From contig DASTZC010000044.1 in the NCBI GenBank assembly GCA_035764505.1, forward strand, positions 1-33,816: a stretch of 33,816 bases of DNA, read 5' to 3'. This stretch comes from Candidatus Polarisedimenticolia bacterium. GTDB taxonomy: Bacteria; Acidobacteriota; Polarisedimenticolia; Gp22-AA2; AA152. Below the pieces are notes generated by a model. The model had not been told where the DNA came from. It saw nothing but the letters and a program-made list of their open reading frames with translations, and made no database searches. Of this stretch, positions 1 through 5,481 are shown in pieces. Every line of letters begins with the position of its first letter. Position 1 is the stretch's first letter. Made by a program: the position numbers and the translations under genes.

Positions 1-2
1 GT

Positions 3-31
3 TTGACCCGTCCCGCGGGATGCGCTAGAGT
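3..31 (+). promoter_or_regulatory. Sigma-70-type promoter for the Fur-family/flavin operon
   Basis: TTGACC at 3-8 and TAGAGT at 26-31 are separated by exactly 17 bases, and the first gene starts about 40 bases downstream of the expected start site. The same TAGAGT box followed by a CCCGCCC...TTATTGA-like leader occurs at the rpmB promoter on the minus strand near 13325, which supports it being a real element. Read by eye only. Confidence 0.65.
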
Positions 32-77
32 CCCGCCCATTATTGAGACTGAGTCGCAATCTCCGATGGAGGCAGGG

Positions 78-533
78 ATGCCCCGGCAGAGCGTGGTCAA
101 CCGGTTTCTCGAAGGAGGCGGGCTCCGGAGCACGGCGGGACGCCGCGCGATCCTGCGCGAAATCGCCGCGCGATCGCTCGGACGGTTCTCGGCGGACGAC
201 CTGATGGAGCGCTTTCGCGGCCGGGGCGTCTCCGTGTCGCGCGCCACCGTCTACCGCACGCTCGACCAGCTGGTGCGCTGCGACCTGCTCGTCCGGCTCG
301 CCCTGGGCCAGAAGCATGCGGTCTACGAGCGGCGCAGCGACAATCGCAGTCCGATCCATTTCTGCTGCGTCCGCTGCGGACACTCCGCCGAGCTGTGCAG
401 CCCGGCGCTGGAGAAGCTCCTGGGCCGCCTCTGCCGGCGGAAGGGATTCACGGCCGAGCGCCGGGGAGTCCAGCTCCTGGGCGTGTGCGTGCGCTGCGGG
501 AAGCTTCCCCCGGATCGCGGGCGGAAGCGATGA
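78..533 (+). CDS. Fur-family metal/peroxide-type transcriptional regulator with a degenerate sensory site
   Basis: This is a winged-helix repressor of the Fur superfamily, about 151 residues, close to family length. The DNA-recognition helix is visible as the motif SRATVYRTL. Two CxxC pairs follow (CVRC in HFCCVRCG and CVRC near the C-terminus), matching the four-cysteine structural zinc site. The regulatory metal site looks altered. Where Fur has a histidine in the NHHVSAED segment there is R (LGRFSADD). The usual HxH before the first CxxC is reduced to one histidine (PIHFCC). The glutamate after YE is kept. The ATG at 78 is preferred over TTG 3 and ATG 66 because GGAGG at 68-72 lies 5 bases before it. 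The stop overlaps the apbE start (ATGA), so the regulator is probably co-transcribed with, and may control, the flavin-redox genes behind it. Whether it is Fur, PerR, Zur or another subtype cannot be told from sequence alone. Confidence 0.85.
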   Translation: MPRQSVVNRFLEGGGLRSTAGRRAILREIAARSLGRFSADDLMERFRGRGVSVSRATVYRTLDQLVRCDLLVRLALGQKHAVYERRSDNRSPIHFCCVRCGHSAELCSPALEKLLGRLCRRKGFTAERRGVQLLGVCVRCGKLPPDRGRKR

Positions 534-1585
534 GGCGCCCGGGGATGCCGCCGGGACTCTGCGCGCTGGTGCTTCTCGCGGCCGCCTGGCCCGCGGCGGC
601 GAAGGACCACGCCGCCGAGCCCTCGGCCAGGATGGTGCGGGCCCGCTACCTGATGGGAACGGTGTTCCGCTTCGAAGCGCCCGCGGGACGCGACGCTGCT
701 GCCACCGCCGCGGCCCTGGAGGCGGCGCTCGACGAGGTGGGGCGCTGGGAGAGGATCCTGAGCAACTGGGACCGGAAGAGCGAGGTCTCCCGCCTCAACG
801 CGAGGGCCGGGATGGGTAACGCGGAAGTGTCGGAGGATCTGCTGCAGGCGGTGAGCGTGGCGCTGCACTGGGCCGGCGCGACCGGCGGCGCCTTCGATCC
901 GACGGTCGAGCCGCTGACCAGAGTCTTTCGCGGACAGCCTGCGGCCGTCTCGGTCCCTTCCACGAAGGCCCGACCGCGCTGGAGCGCGGTGGAGGTCGAT
1001 GCGACGCGACGCTGGGTCTCAATCCCCACGGGCTCGGGCCTCGATTTCGGCGGCATCGGCAAGGGGATCGCGCTCGACCAGGCGGCGGCGCTGCTGCGCG
1101 GGCGGGGCATCAGCGCCGCCTTGCTCGACGCCGGTGGGCAGCTGCTGGCGCTGGGGGCTCCTCCGGGCGAGAAGGGCTGGCGCATCGGAGTTTCCGATCC
1201 CCAGCGCCGCGATCAATCAATCGTCACCCTGGTCCTGAAGAACGCCTCGGCCGCCACCAGCGGCAACGCCGAGCGCCCGGGGGAAGTCCTGGATCCGGAG
1301 TCGGGGCTTCCCATCGCGGGCAGCGGCAGCGCCACCGCCGTGGCCGCGCGGGCCACGTCGGCCGATGCCCTCTCCACCGCTCTTTTCGTCATGGGTACGC
1401 AACGCGGCCTCGAATACGCCCGCGCGCGGCACGATCTCATCGCTGTTTTCGTCCAGCCTCGGTCACCTTCCCGAGGAGTCGCTCCGGTGGTGGCGAACCT
1501 GCCGGGAGACCCGGAGAGCACCCTGTTCGTCATTGTGGGTCCCGAGGACCCCGCCGATGGGAGGCTGCGTGTCGAAGCTCGCTAA
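530..1585 (+). CDS. apbE: FAD:protein FMN transferase (ApbE)
   Basis: ApbE transfers FMN from FAD onto a Thr or Ser of exported flavoproteins, using Mg2+, on the periplasmic side. The product is about 351 residues, normal for the family. An N-terminal hydrophobic segment ending in AAAKD looks like a signal peptide, with no lipobox cysteine at the cleavage point. Family motifs are visible: LSNWDRKSEVSRLN, the flavin-binding DFGGIGKGIALD, LLDAGG, the NASAATSGN segment, and the Mg-site region ATSADALSTALFVMG near the end. The start at 530 overlaps the stop of the Fur-family gene (ATGA) and the 3' end overlaps the porin gene, so translation is probably coupled. The FMN-binding protein two genes downstream is the obvious substrate (inference). 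Confidence 0.93.
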   Translation: MRRPGMPPGLCALVLLAAAWPAAAKDHAAEPSARMVRARYLMGTVFRFEAPAGRDAAATAAALEAALDEVGRWERILSNWDRKSEVSRLNARAGMGNAEVSEDLLQAVSVALHWAGATGGAFDPTVEPLTRVFRGQPAAVSVPSTKARPRWSAVEVDATRRWVSIPTGSGLDFGGIGKGIALDQAAALLRGRGISAALLDAGGQLLALGAPPGEKGWRIGVSDPQRRDQSIVTLVLKNASAATSGNAERPGEVLDPESGLPIAGSGSATAVAARATSADALSTALFVMGTQRGLEYARARHDLIAVFVQPRSPSRGVAPVVANLPGDPESTLFVIVGPEDPADGRLRVEAR

Positions 1586-2999
1586 ATTTGCCGCAGGCAT
1601 CGTTTTGATGGGAGGTCTTCTGGAGGCGGTCCCGCTCGCCGCCGCGGCCGCGCCGGGCCCCGCTCCGAAGAGCGTCGCGGCGGAGGCCGCTGCCGACAGC
1701 GAGGCGCGCCTGAAGGAGCTGGAACGAAGAATTCGCGAGCTCGAGGCGCAGCTGGCGGCGCTGCGAGGCGCGGCGGGCGGCGAGCAGGCCGACCGAATCG
1801 CACGTCTGGAGGAGCAGATCGACGCGCTGAGCCGGGAGATCGAGCACCTCAAGATCGGCGAGGCCGCGGCGCCCATCGCGCAGGAGCCGGTTCACGGACT
1901 GGGGCCGGCCGCTTCCAAGATCTACAAGGTGCGTGAAGGAGTGTCGGTGGGAGGCTACGGCGAGCTGACCTACACCGACGCGGCCGGCCGGATGGACTCG
2001 GGCGATCCTTCCGGAGCCGACGATACGCTGGACCTCCTGCGCGCGGTCCTCTATTTCGGGTACAAATGGAACGATCGGATCCTCTTCAACTCCGAGATCG
2101 AGTTCGAGCATGCCACCACGGGGGAGGGGGATGAGGAAAAGGGTGAGGTGTCGGTCGAGTTCGCCTACGTCGACTTCCTCTGGAAGAAAGCCCTGAATGC
2201 CCGGGCCGGGCTGCTGCTCCTCCCGATGGGGATCCTCAACGAGATGCACGAGCCGACGACTTTCCACGGAGTCCTGCGCCCCCGCGTCGAGACGGTAATC
2301 CTGCCGTCCACCTGGCGGGAGAACGGCGCGGGCGTCTACGGGGAAACCGACTATCTCGCCTACCGGGCCTATTTGGTCGCCGGCCTCGACGCGCTGGGAT
2401 TCTCGGCCGACGAGGGGATACGCGAAGGAAGGCAGGGCGGGTCGCAATCGCTGGCGAACGATTTCGCCCTGACGGCGCGTCTGGACCTGACACGAGTCCC
2501 GGGGCTCGTGGCCGGAGTCTCCGCCTTCTCCGGCGCGGCGGCGCAGGGACAGCTCGATGCGCGGGCGCGGACCACGGTTTACGATCTGCATGCCCTGTAC
2601 GAAAAGCGCGGCTTCCAGGCCCGCGGAGTCTGGGCGCGGGGGTCGATCGACGATGTCGAGGAGATCGATCAGGCCCTGACGATCGCTCCCGGCTCGACGG
2701 AGTCGGTCGGGGAGAAGCAGAAGGGGTGGTATCTGGAAGGGGCTTACGACCTGCTGTCCGTCAAGGACGGCGCGCGGCAGTCGCTTTCGCTGTTTCTGCG
2801 GCACGAGGCGCTCGACACTCAGGACGGCGTCCCGGCCGGATTCCTGGAGGATCCTTCGCTGGATCAGCGGATCTGGACAGCCGGCATAACCTGGAAGCCG
2901 ATTCCGCAGGTGGCGCTCAAAGCGGACGTGCAGGATGTCGATGATTCAGCCGGGACGGGAGTGGATGGGTTCCATGTCGGATTGGGCTGGATCTTCTAG
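1557..2999 (+). CDS. Outer-membrane beta-barrel porin with N-terminal coiled coil
   Basis: About 480 residues. A signal peptide (KLAKFAAGIVLMGGLLEAVPLAAAAA) is followed by a charged heptad-rich coiled coil (ARLKELERRIRELEAQL and a second stretch RIARLEEQIDALSREI). A long region of alternating beta-strand character follows and ends in GLGWIF, the terminal aromatic typical of BAM-inserted barrels. This layout resembles OprO/OprP-like or other 16- to 18-strand porins with a periplasmic coiled coil; the RPRVETVILPSTWRENGAG segment looks like a conserved turn/loop of such barrels. The substrate is unknown. The start could be ATG 1557 or GTG 1569 (GGGAGG at 1559-1564); both lie inside the end of apbE. 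Its place between apbE and an FMN-binding protein suggests that the barrel serves the same redox process, possibly passage of an iron complex or soluble flavin, but this is inference. Confidence 0.75.
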   Translation: MGGCVSKLAKFAAGIVLMGGLLEAVPLAAAAAPGPAPKSVAAEAAADSEARLKELERRIRELEAQLAALRGAAGGEQADRIARLEEQIDALSREIEHLKIGEAAAPIAQEPVHGLGPAASKIYKVREGVSVGGYGELTYTDAAGRMDSGDPSGADDTLDLLRAVLYFGYKWNDRILFNSEIEFEHATTGEGDEEKGEVSVEFAYVDFLWKKALNARAGLLLLPMGILNEMHEPTTFHGVLRPRVETVILPSTWRENGAGVYGETDYLAYRAYLVAGLDALGFSADEGIREGRQGGSQSLANDFALTARLDLTRVPGLVAGVSAFSGAAAQGQLDARARTTVYDLHALYEKRGFQARGVWARGSIDDVEEIDQALTIAPGSTESVGEKQKGWYLEGAYDLLSVKDGARQSLSLFLRHEALDTQDGVPAGFLEDPSLDQRIWTAGITWKPIPQVALKADVQDVDDSAGTGVDGFHVGLGWIF

Positions 3000-3549
3000 C
3001 GGGCCTGCGAAGCTGCTGGGGACTGCGGTGCTTGCCGCCGCCGTTCTCCTGGCCGCGCCCCCCCGGGCGGAGGCCAAGGTCTACCTGACGCAGGAGGAGG
3101 CGCTGCGCTCCGCCTTCCCTCCTCCCGCGCAGGTCGAGCGACGGACCCTCTATCTCAGCGAGGCCGACACCCTCAAGATCGCCAAGGAGGCAGGATCGCC
3201 TCTCGGCGGCAGCGTCTTCTCCTATTACGTGGGGAAGCGCGGTTCCGAGATCGCAGGGTACGCCTGGTTCGACACGCACATCGTGAGGACCCTGCCGGAG
3301 ACGATCATGGTGCTGCTGCGTCCCGACGGCCGCATCCAGCGAATCGACATCCTCTCCTTCGCCGAGCCCGAAGATTACTTCGCCAAGGAGCCCTGGCGCG
3401 CGCAGTTCTCGGGCAAGGATCTGGATGGGGATCTGGCGCTGCGGCGCGGCATCCGGGGGCTCACCGGCGCCTCGCTGACGGCGGAGGCGATTACCGCCGC
3501 CTGCCGGCGGGTCCTCGCCCTGCACCGCTTCGCCGGGTCGAAGCGGTGA
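2965..3549 (+). CDS. Exported FMN-binding domain protein (NqrC/RnfG-type flavinylated domain)
   Basis: About 194 residues from ATG 2965. Start sites at 2935, 2941 and 2974 are also possible, and all overlap the porin end. A hydrophobic signal segment (LLGTAVLAAAVLLAAPPRAEA) leads to a single FMN-binding domain. The flavin-acceptor motif near the C-terminus is RGLTGASLTAEAIT, matching the family pattern D-x-x-(S/T)-G-A-(T/S). The last Ser would carry FMN, but the usual Asp is replaced by Arg. Such domains are flavinylated by ApbE, encoded two genes upstream, and shuttle electrons outside the cytoplasm. The stop overlaps the GTG start of the next gene (GTGA), an adjacent membrane protein that could supply electrons. 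Domain identity is fairly sure; the electron donor and acceptor are not known. Confidence 0.8.
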   Translation: MGSMSDWAGSSSGPAKLLGTAVLAAAVLLAAPPRAEAKVYLTQEEALRSAFPPPAQVERRTLYLSEADTLKIAKEAGSPLGGSVFSYYVGKRGSEIAGYAWFDTHIVRTLPETIMVLLRPDGRIQRIDILSFAEPEDYFAKEPWRAQFSGKDLDGDLALRRGIRGLTGASLTAEAITAACRRVLALHRFAGSKR

Positions 3550-4043
3550 TCGGCCGTTCCGAGAAAATTCTCCTGCTGGCCGCGAGCCTGGCCACCGGGG
3601 TGAGCGGGCTGGTGTACGGCTGGATGCGGCACTTCGCCCGCAGCCAGGATCCCTTTTCGGTGGTGTCGCACCCCTGGCAGCCGCAGGTCGCGGCGCTGCA
3701 CATCCTGGCCGCGCCGGTGCTGGTCTTCGGCCTCGGTCTGATAACGCGCGATCACATCATCGGACGATTCCGCGACCCGCGTGCCCGTCGCGGCAGGAAG
3801 ACGGGAATTGTCGCCGCCGCGTTGCTGATTCCGATGGTGGCTTCGGGCTACGTACTGCAAGCTCTGGGCTCCCAGGCGTGGCGCGACGCCACCGGCTGGC
3901 TGCACCTCGGACTGGGCTTCCTGTACCTCCTACTGCTGGCCGCCCATCTGCGATTCTCGTCGCCGGGTGCGGCTTCTCCGGCGCGCGGAGCCCGGGAAGG
4001 GGCGGCAATCCCGGGGGGCCGGCGGCGATTGAAGAGACGGTAG
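3546..4043 (+). CDS. Small four-helix membrane protein, DUF4405/cytochrome b-like
   Basis: About 165 residues with four predicted membrane helices: near ILLLAASLATGVSGLVYG, VAALHILAAPVLVFGLGL, VAAALLIPMVASGYVLQ and WLHLGLGFLYLLLLAAHL. Histidines lie within or at the edges of helices (SHPWQPQVAALH, GWLHLGLG, LLLAAHLRF), which is the pattern of b-type heme ligands in cytochrome b561/DUF4405-like proteins. The basic tail (GGRRRLKRR) should be cytoplasmic. The GTG start overlaps the stop of the FMN-binding gene by four bases (GTGA), implying coupling. The likely role is to pass electrons from the membrane quinol pool to the flavinylated partner. Heme binding is inferred from histidine spacing only. 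It is the last gene of the operon. Confidence 0.65.
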   Translation: MIGRSEKILLLAASLATGVSGLVYGWMRHFARSQDPFSVVSHPWQPQVAALHILAAPVLVFGLGLITRDHIIGRFRDPRARRGRKTGIVAAALLIPMVASGYVLQALGSQAWRDATGWLHLGLGFLYLLLLAAHLRFSSPGAASPARGAREGAAIPGGRRRLKRR

Positions 4044-4056
4044 AATCCCGTATAAT
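4029..4056 (+). promoter_or_regulatory. Promoter for the secreted TPR protein
   Basis: TTGAAG at 4029-4034 and a perfect TATAAT at 4051-4056 are 16 bases apart. The initiating ATG at 4099 is about 36 bases past the expected start site, with GGAGGGAG at 4083-4090 as ribosome site. The -35 lies inside the end of the upstream gene. Confidence 0.7.
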
Positions 4057-4098: not shown

Positions 4099-5481
4099 AT
4101 GAAGGACAAAGGCAGGATGTTGTTTCGCGCGATCGCCGTGGCGCTCAGCCTGGCGGTGCTGGCGCCCGGAGCATGGAAGGCGGCGCAGGCGGGTGACACC
4201 ACCAAGGTGAGCGGGACGGTGACCGATGCGTCGGGTAAGCCGCTGGAGAAAGTGGAGATCTGGTTCGAGAACGCCAAGATCGCGGGCAAGCGGGTCGGAC
4301 CGGTGAAGACCAGCAAGAAGGGGAAGTACATCTACCCCTACCTCGACGTCGGCATCGAGCCGGAGTGGCGCGTCATCCCCAAGCTGGAGGGATATCTCGT
4401 CTTGAGGATGAACTGGAAGCTGATCGACTCGCAGCGCAACGATCGCGGCTCCAACACCGACACCATCCTCAACGCCAAGCAGGAAATCCCCTCCCTTCAC
4501 CCCGTCCTGGTGGGGGACAGCGGCGTGAACGAGGTCAACTTCGTCATGGTCAAGGAGGCGGAGTTCAACAACGCCGTCCGCCAGGCGGTCACCGGAAAGC
4601 ATGGTGGCTCGGCGGCACCGGCGGCAGCGACCGGGACGGCCCCAGAAGCTGCGGCCGCCGGCGCGCCGGCAGCCGCGGGAGCTGCGGCTCCTGCGCCCGC
4701 CGCGGCTCCCCCCACGAGCAGCCACACGGTGACCGAGGCGGTGGATCTGATCAAGGCGGGCAAGAACGAAGAGGCCATTCCGATTCTCAAGGAATTCTTG
4801 GAGAAAAGCCCCGAGAACGCCCCGATCCAGTTCACTCTCGGCAAGGCTTACATCAATGCCAAGCAGTACGACGCCGCGGTGGCACCGCTGCAGAAAAGCC
4901 TGCAGCTGAAGCCCGACCAGCCCGGCGCCCACTTTTATCTGGGCATCGCCTACTCGCAAATGGGCCAGGACGCAGACGCGCTCAAGGAGTTCGAGGCGGA
5001 GATCCCGATCTCGCCGGAGCAGGATTCGGCATACTCCAACGCCGCGTCTCTCTACGACAAAGCCGGAAACACCGATAAGGCGCTGGAGTACTACAAGAAG
5101 GCGGTCGAGATCGCCCCGCAGCGGCCCGAGCTGCATGCCAGCCTTGCCAACATCTACGAGAAGAAGGGAGACAAGGCTTCCGCCCAGGCGGAATACAAGG
5201 CGCTCGCCGACGCCGATCCGGGCCGCGCGGCGGTGACCTGGTACAACGTGGGCGCCATCGCCAAGAACGGGGACAAGAACGACGAGGCGGTCAAGGCGTT
5301 CCAGAAGGCGATCGAGCTGGATCCCTCCTACGCCATCGCCCACCGGGAGCTCGGCTACGCCCTGGTCAAGCAAGGTGATTTCAAGGGGGCCGTCGCCCAA
5401 TTCACCAAGTATCTCGAGCTGGCACCTAAGGCGGCCGATGCCGGCGAGATCAAGGTGATGGCGAAGCAGTTGAGCCAGTAG
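4099..5481 (+). CDS. Secreted TPR protein with N-terminal carboxypeptidase-regulatory-like domain
   Basis: 460 residues in four parts. Residues 1-32 are a signal peptide (AIAVALSLAVLAPGAWKAAQAG). Residues 34-150 hold a CarboxypepD_reg/CnaB-like beta fold, starting at the typical KVSGTVTDASGKPLEKVEI. Residues 168-210 are an Ala/Pro linker. The rest is about seven TPR units, easily seen from repeats such as APIQFTLGKAYINAKQYDAAV, GAHFYLGIAYSQMGQDADAL and PSYAIAHRELGYALVKQGDF. It is expected in the periplasm or attached to the envelope as a protein-binding scaffold; the partner is unknown. It stands alone between its own promoter and terminator. The Ala/Pro linker is low-complexity and may vary between strains. 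Confidence 0.85.
   Translation: MKDKGRMLFRAIAVALSLAVLAPGAWKAAQAGDTTKVSGTVTDASGKPLEKVEIWFENAKIAGKRVGPVKTSKKGKYIYPYLDVGIEPEWRVIPKLEGYLVLRMNWKLIDSQRNDRGSNTDTILNAKQEIPSLHPVLVGDSGVNEVNFVMVKEAEFNNAVRQAVTGKHGGSAAPAAATGTAPEAAAAGAPAAAGAAAPAPAAAPPTSSHTVTEAVDLIKAGKNEEAIPILKEFLEKSPENAPIQFTLGKAYINAKQYDAAVAPLQKSLQLKPDQPGAHFYLGIAYSQMGQDADALKEFEAEIPISPEQDSAYSNAASLYDKAGNTDKALEYYKKAVEIAPQRPELHASLANIYEKKGDKASAQAEYKALADADPGRAAVTWYNVGAIAKNGDKNDEAVKAFQKAIELDPSYAIAHRELGYALVKQGDFKGAVAQFTKYLELAPKAADAGEIKVMAKQLSQ

Follow-up and report, generated by a model that had tools for sequence, protein, structure and literature searches.

An acidobacterial operon joining a porin with flavin and cytochrome b-like proteins: a candidate iron-regulated ferric reductase of the cell envelope

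Layout and components of the operon

The window analyzed here is one whole contig of 33,816 nucleotides (DASTZC010000044.1, assembly GCA_035764505.1) from a Candidatus Polarisedimenticolia bacterium of the Acidobacteriota. At its beginning, five genes on the plus strand (66-4043) encode a Fur-family regulator, the flavin mononucleotide (FMN) transferase ApbE, an outer-membrane porin, a periplasmic FMN_bind protein, and a small cytochrome b-like membrane protein (cytb), in this order (Table 1). Every open reading frame (ORF) overlaps its successor—by four bases for Fur/ApbE (ATGA) and FMN_bind/cytb (GTGA), and by lengths that vary with the start codon picked for ApbE/porin and porin/FMN_bind, the FMN_bind start at about 2965 falling within the last codons of the porin gene. 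A promoter scan of 4300 bp yielded exactly two sigma-70-like sites at 0.1 expected, one before Fur and one at the 3′ limit of the operon, while a terminator scan run alongside it gave zero hits. The five overlapping genes behind one promoter, as described by a first-pass annotation of this DNA, are hence found as claimed. The contig has its first start codon after 65 bp, so that genes 5′ of Fur lie outside the view. The downstream gene for a tetratricopeptide repeat (TPR) protein at 4099-5481 was tried as an operon member and rejected, because it has its own promoter and neighbors the module only in the wider lineage of the window.

Table 1 Features of the operon and its borders in the window
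Feature	Position	Strand	Basis or remark
Sigma-70-like promoter TTGACC-17-TAGAGT	3..31	+	Promoter scan; before Fur
Palindromic Fur-box-like operator ATTGAGACTGAGTCGCAAT	42..60	.	Upstream-region comparison, pattern counts
Fur-family regulator	66..533 (ATG 66 or 78)	+	PF01475; structural Zn CxxC pairs retained
ApbE, FAD:protein FMN transferase, N-terminal export-type segment	530..1585	+	PF02424
Outer-membrane porin: N-terminal coiled coil, barrel, C-terminal Phe	1557 (or 1569)..2999	+	Fold model and alignment
Periplasmic FMN_bind protein, flavinylation motif GLTGASLT	about 2965..3549	+	PF04205; later starts possible
Four-helix b-type-cytochrome-like membrane protein (cytb); invariant H42, H52, H70, H120, H134	3546..4043	+	Alignment, fold model
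Promoter of next gene (TPR protein)	4029..4056	+	Promoter scan; 3′ limit of operon

ApbE is assigned with 196 bits to PF02424 (cut-off 25.6), and the FMN_bind protein lies barely above the cut-off of PF04205 (23.2 versus 22 bits), with RnfG as its nearest solved relative. Both bear hydrophobic N-termini with AxA-type ends as judged by eye. The flavinylation motif has an invariant G-A; as acceptor, 25 of 31 proteins carry Thr, and the window protein carries Ser.

For the porin, Pfam gives no significant hit; the Porin_O_P family (PF07396) reaches 12.2 versus 20.9 bits. A sequence search of the PDB returned coiled coils only; the barrel relation came from the fold search. The model, built with 26 orthologues at a predicted local distance difference test score (pLDDT) of 85, is a β-barrel that matches 16-stranded porins with E 4e-13, among its fold matches being OmpM1, OmpU, and OprP at E about 1e-12. 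The alignment displays many invariant columns, including the C-terminal Phe. Homologues also occur in Prevotella (E 4e-29), Parabacteroides, and Pseudoalteromonas, where they open an envelope operon that continues with genes of the imelysin family and for di-heme oxidoreductases (L128:4884-11113, L129:4869-8848, L130:3875-8111). These loci of Bacteroidota and Pseudoalteromonas resemble the module in bringing together a homologous porin with redox genes, but the partners are unrelated to FMN_bind and cytb; by homology, the same porin family is likely to serve a different envelope partner set there.

For cytb, the model shows four long helices (pLDDT 88), with H52 and H70 on helix 2 and H120 and H134 on helix 4—pairs that would suit two bis-histidine hemes. 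The best fold matches are bc1, b6f, hydrogenase-1 cytochrome b, and STEAP2, at E values of only 0.05-0.5 and probabilities up to 1.00. Cytochrome b561 (PF01292) is not matched by the window protein; 12 of 30 orthologues match it with 6.9e-7 at best, and one orthologue scores 23.3 against the cut-off of 30.1. The fold match to diheme b-type cytochromes and the invariant histidines together suggest that the membrane b-type cytochrome-like protein of the first-pass annotation was correctly recognized, whereas its label "DUF4405-like" does not hold. DUF4405 (PF14358) membership was rejected at 10.7 versus 26.7 bits (E=0.82) and four helices instead of six, even if the DUF4405 trait of four conserved central histidines is present (H52, H70, H120, H134); among the 30 orthologues, three match this family at E<=0.1. 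Carriers of the MsrQ-like, PepSY-like, and DsbD types were rejected as well, no such Pfam match being found among 30 members of the cytb family. By the positive-inside rule (applied by eye), both termini of cytb lie in the cytoplasm and the conserved H42-P-x-Q-P loop lies in the periplasm and could there be turned toward the flavin protein.

Conservation, operator, and linkage to iron genes

The cytb sequence as query found matches in 33 of 60 relatives and in 57 of 199 genomes sampled across the phylum; a contig search with the FMN protein alone as query gave two loci only. We read 64 cytb loci in full, drawn from many families of the phylum and in some cases cut by contig ends. Their neighbor genes were taken from a codon-usage gene caller, since shadow ORFs dominated a clustering of raw six-frame ORFs from this GC-rich DNA. 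Next to cytb, 63 of these loci bear FMN_bind, 58 the porin, 49 ApbE, and 12 a same-strand Fur. ApbE is positioned upstream of cytb or, in about 15 loci, downstream. The linkage in related genomes that the first-pass annotation had put forward as a check on its proposal is hence present, and a chance arrangement is ruled out because the gene order is kept in many genomes. One acidobacterial family (f54; L088-L091, L117, L118) carries the module with neither ApbE nor a Fur box nearby; ahead of it lies the gene of a conserved protein of 134 aa that belongs to no Pfam family.

The module is also found on proteobacterial plasmids, as porin-FMN-ApbE-cytb in Methylocystis, Bradyrhizobium, and Ideonella, and as FMN-ApbE-cytb without a recognizable member of this porin family in Novosphingobium and Sphingomonas. 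Four proteobacterial sets, compared by eye, retain the four helix-borne histidines and a SGAT-type motif; the loop histidine H42 is invariant in Acidobacteriota.

A palindrome near ATTGAGAATGATTCTCAAT is common to the upstream regions of module operons, with a perfect copy at L042, and by eye the combination of promoter and operator looks alike upstream of L021, L041, and L094. Counted at a threshold of at least 14 of 19 consensus positions, this Fur-box-like operator stands before 34 of the 59 operons, compared with 20 of the 446 control genes (Fisher 4e-23)—a p-value that overstates independence, as the consensus was picked after viewing some sites and the loci are related. Several of the 20 control matches are divergent genes on the same intergenic region as an operon. 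The operator is also found before operons without a fur gene. In the window genome, a looser pattern matches only twice, before this operon and before a Fur-FTR1 operon on contig C113, and a control pattern not at all. Fur operators in the literature are inverted repeats rich in AT, and one proven example, that of MgFur at feoAB1 (PMC4506495), contains the half-site TCGCAA as well.

Some operons carry iron genes of their own. One reads Fur-FeoB-FeoA/DtxR fusion-ApbE-porin-FMN-cytb (L041), another Fur-FTR1-ApbE-porin-FMN-cytb (L094), and in a third a decayed FeoB start lies between Fur and the module (L031:9397-9609), at the same place as FeoB in L041. Elsewhere, the module is accompanied by a divergent DtxR regulator and a convergent VIT1 (L043) or by two divergent ZIP genes (L042). 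The Fur-FTR1 operon of the window genome (L119:10397-12174) bears the Fur box ATTGAGAACGATTATCAA and continues with two permease-like genes and an ABC ATPase; in its gene content it appears as an operon resembling P19/FTR1 iron uptake systems.

In about 13 of 50 genomes, a fur gene adjoins the module, and four of these genomes (G014, G017, G022, G024) have no other Fur. The window protein clearly belongs to the family (PF01475, 70.8 bits, cut-off 23.1), but it bears R36 and P92 (P0001 numbering) where 10 of 11 aligned proteins carry His. In an alignment with solved Fur proteins, these residues fall at what we take to be positions of the regulatory metal site in this family. The second Fur of the window genome retains its regulatory-site histidines. 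Of the metal-type switch claimed in the first-pass annotation, the Fur family thus stands, whereas in this genome two metal-site histidines are replaced. Judged by these substitutions, the operon Fur of this genome may be blind to metal or altered as a regulator, in which case the second Fur would sense iron. At four further loci (L035, L036, L037, L040), the module Fur is of a different subtype, the palindrome is TTGCGA...TCGCAA and not TTGAGA...TCTCAA, and the operon is without ApbE.

Function of the module and its alternatives

We consider it probable that the operon serves iron assimilation: under the control of iron, it would encode a ferric reductase in the cell envelope together with a dedicated porin. 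The observed gene set, its order and conservation, the flavinylation motif, the histidines, the fold class of porin and cytochrome, the conserved operator, and the linkage to Fur, FeoB, FTR1, and DtxR form the basis of this assignment. Small ferric complexes would enter the periplasm through the porin. In the inner membrane, cytb would take up electrons—most likely from quinol—and hand them via two hemes to the periplasmic FMN protein, to which ApbE would have bound FMN covalently at the (S/T)GA(T/S) motif (TGAS in the window). We infer this direction of electron flow, as well as the heme and the covalent flavin, together with Fe(III) as the substrate: the reduced flavin would convert Fe(III) to Fe(II) in the periplasm, and an inner-membrane transporter would import the product, in relatives the FeoB or FTR1 of the same operon and here possibly the separately encoded FTR1. 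A Fur-type repressor on the operator at 42-60 would switch the operon off when iron is plentiful. The first-pass annotation had seen here an envelope module for electron transfer by flavin and heme, with a porin of its own under a Fur-type switch, and this view is supported. Of the two roles it suggested, "reduction of an imported metal complex" gains support, with iron as the probable metal in view of the Fur/FeoB/FTR1/DtxR linkage and the operator; for "export of electrons," no positive evidence was found.

Several observations weigh against the assignment as an iron reductase, among them the limited independence of the operator count given above. An iron transporter is absent from most operons. 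The window genome is without a convincing FeoB, its best PF02421 match having an E value of 1e-19, whereas true FeoB proteins of other genomes reach 1e-44 to 1e-65. Its Fe(II) importer is hence a guess, with the FTR1 on C113 and, by eye, an NRAMP-like protein encoded next to a regulator of the DtxR family (L120) as candidates. The Fur of the window is without two regulatory metal-site His ligands. At the f54 loci, the operons have no adjacent ApbE, and no operator is recognizable at these and at several porin-first loci. Between ApbE and FMN_bind, the L105 operon encodes a multicopper oxidase along with a second porin (L105:8439-9875); here a ferric reductase may be linked to a ferroxidase or to a cuprous oxidase. 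Copper oxidases are found near the set of Methylocystis as well. CCP/MauG-type peroxidase genes adjoin the module in L109 (L109:3164-4498) and L110, both of Acidobacteriota, and in Ideonella dechloratans (L124:3460-4665).

Some of these neighbors point to other functions. The copper oxidases of Methylocystis heyeri and L105, together with the ZIP genes at L042 and the membership of Zur and Mur in the Fur family, would fit the same machinery acting on another metal—copper, manganese, or zinc—by reducing imported Cu(II) or Mn complexes; FeoB, FeoA-DtxR, and FTR1, where they are encoded together with the module, belong, however, to iron families, and the window operon has its operator in common with the Fur-FTR1 operon of its genome, which makes another metal improbable. 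We regard it as equally improbable that the module is respiratory, that is, a dissimilatory and energy-yielding system in which electrons would leave via the FMN protein for soluble acceptors or for acceptors outside the cell, and the porin would let a shuttle out or an acceptor in. A porin, a periplasmic flavin, and a b cytochrome make up a plausible export route, and family f32 has the set without a fur gene. Against this stand the missing multiheme cytochrome conduit in the operons, the Fur-type operators with the Fur/FeoB/FTR1/DtxR linkage, and a barrel that resembles general 16-strand porins. Slightly less likely still is a role in the periplasm comparable to that of MsrPQ, in which cytb and the FMN protein would supply the electrons for removing peroxide or repairing proteins by feeding a diheme peroxidase or another reductase. 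PerR is a member of the Fur family, and the CCP/MauG gene follows cytb in L109 and L110 and precedes the porin in Ideonella; yet the peroxidase occurs at few loci only, the near-invariant porin would be left without a reason, and the linkage to iron transporters speaks against it.

At 13631-33816, the window contains, by eye, an ordinary type IV pilus set (PilM/N/O/P/Q-, PilB/T/C-, and PilS/R-like) together with acetyl-CoA carboxylase genes.

Relation to known systems and significance

Assimilatory iron reduction was proposed by Meheust et al. (2021) for MsrQ-like and PepSY-like flavinylation clusters from their linkage to VIT1 and Fur (PMC8238504). These flavinylation-associated iron reductases—including the DsbD-linked ones—share with the module an ApbE, an exported flavinylated domain, an inner-membrane carrier, and links to Fur and to ferrous-iron transporters such as VIT1. 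Unlike them, the module has a carrier that matches no MsrQ, PepSY, or DsbD Pfam family and a porin in its core; a porin is unmentioned in the main text of that study. FMN_bind genes were noted there in P19-FTR1 clusters, and L094 likewise combines an FMN_bind gene with the FTR1 iron permease, but no P19 gene is seen in the operon, which has the porin and the cytochrome instead. Huang et al. (2024) have shown heme in DUF4405 and FezC, with heme b in DUF4405 and FezC tied to iron (PMC10979944). Like these cytochromes, cytb is a small membrane protein with four central histidines encoded beside apbE; it differs in staying under the DUF4405 cut-off, in having four helices versus six, and in the extra invariant loop H42 in Acidobacteriota. 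Among open-license papers, no description of the five-gene combination was found. On sequence grounds, what is new relative to the known flavinylation-linked iron reductases is the carrier and the near-invariant porin.

More tentatively, and with somewhat less than an even chance, the module might represent an undescribed, phylum-wide class of Fur-controlled iron reductases, in which the porin belongs integrally to a reductase with covalent flavin and two hemes and which would offer Gram-negative bacteria a reductive iron route independent of siderophores and TonB. If this is true, the FTR1 version of the L094 type would parallel the yeast Fre-Ftr1 pathway. Known flavinylation systems would gain a transmembrane carrier and an outer-membrane partner, and "hypothetical protein" annotations—including those on plasmids of Bradyrhizobium, Methylocystis, Sphingomonas, and Ideonella—would be tied to one probable function. 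To our knowledge, iron acquisition by most uncultured Acidobacteriota is poorly known. The porin-flavin-heme module under an iron-type operator may provide a concrete and testable candidate for it.

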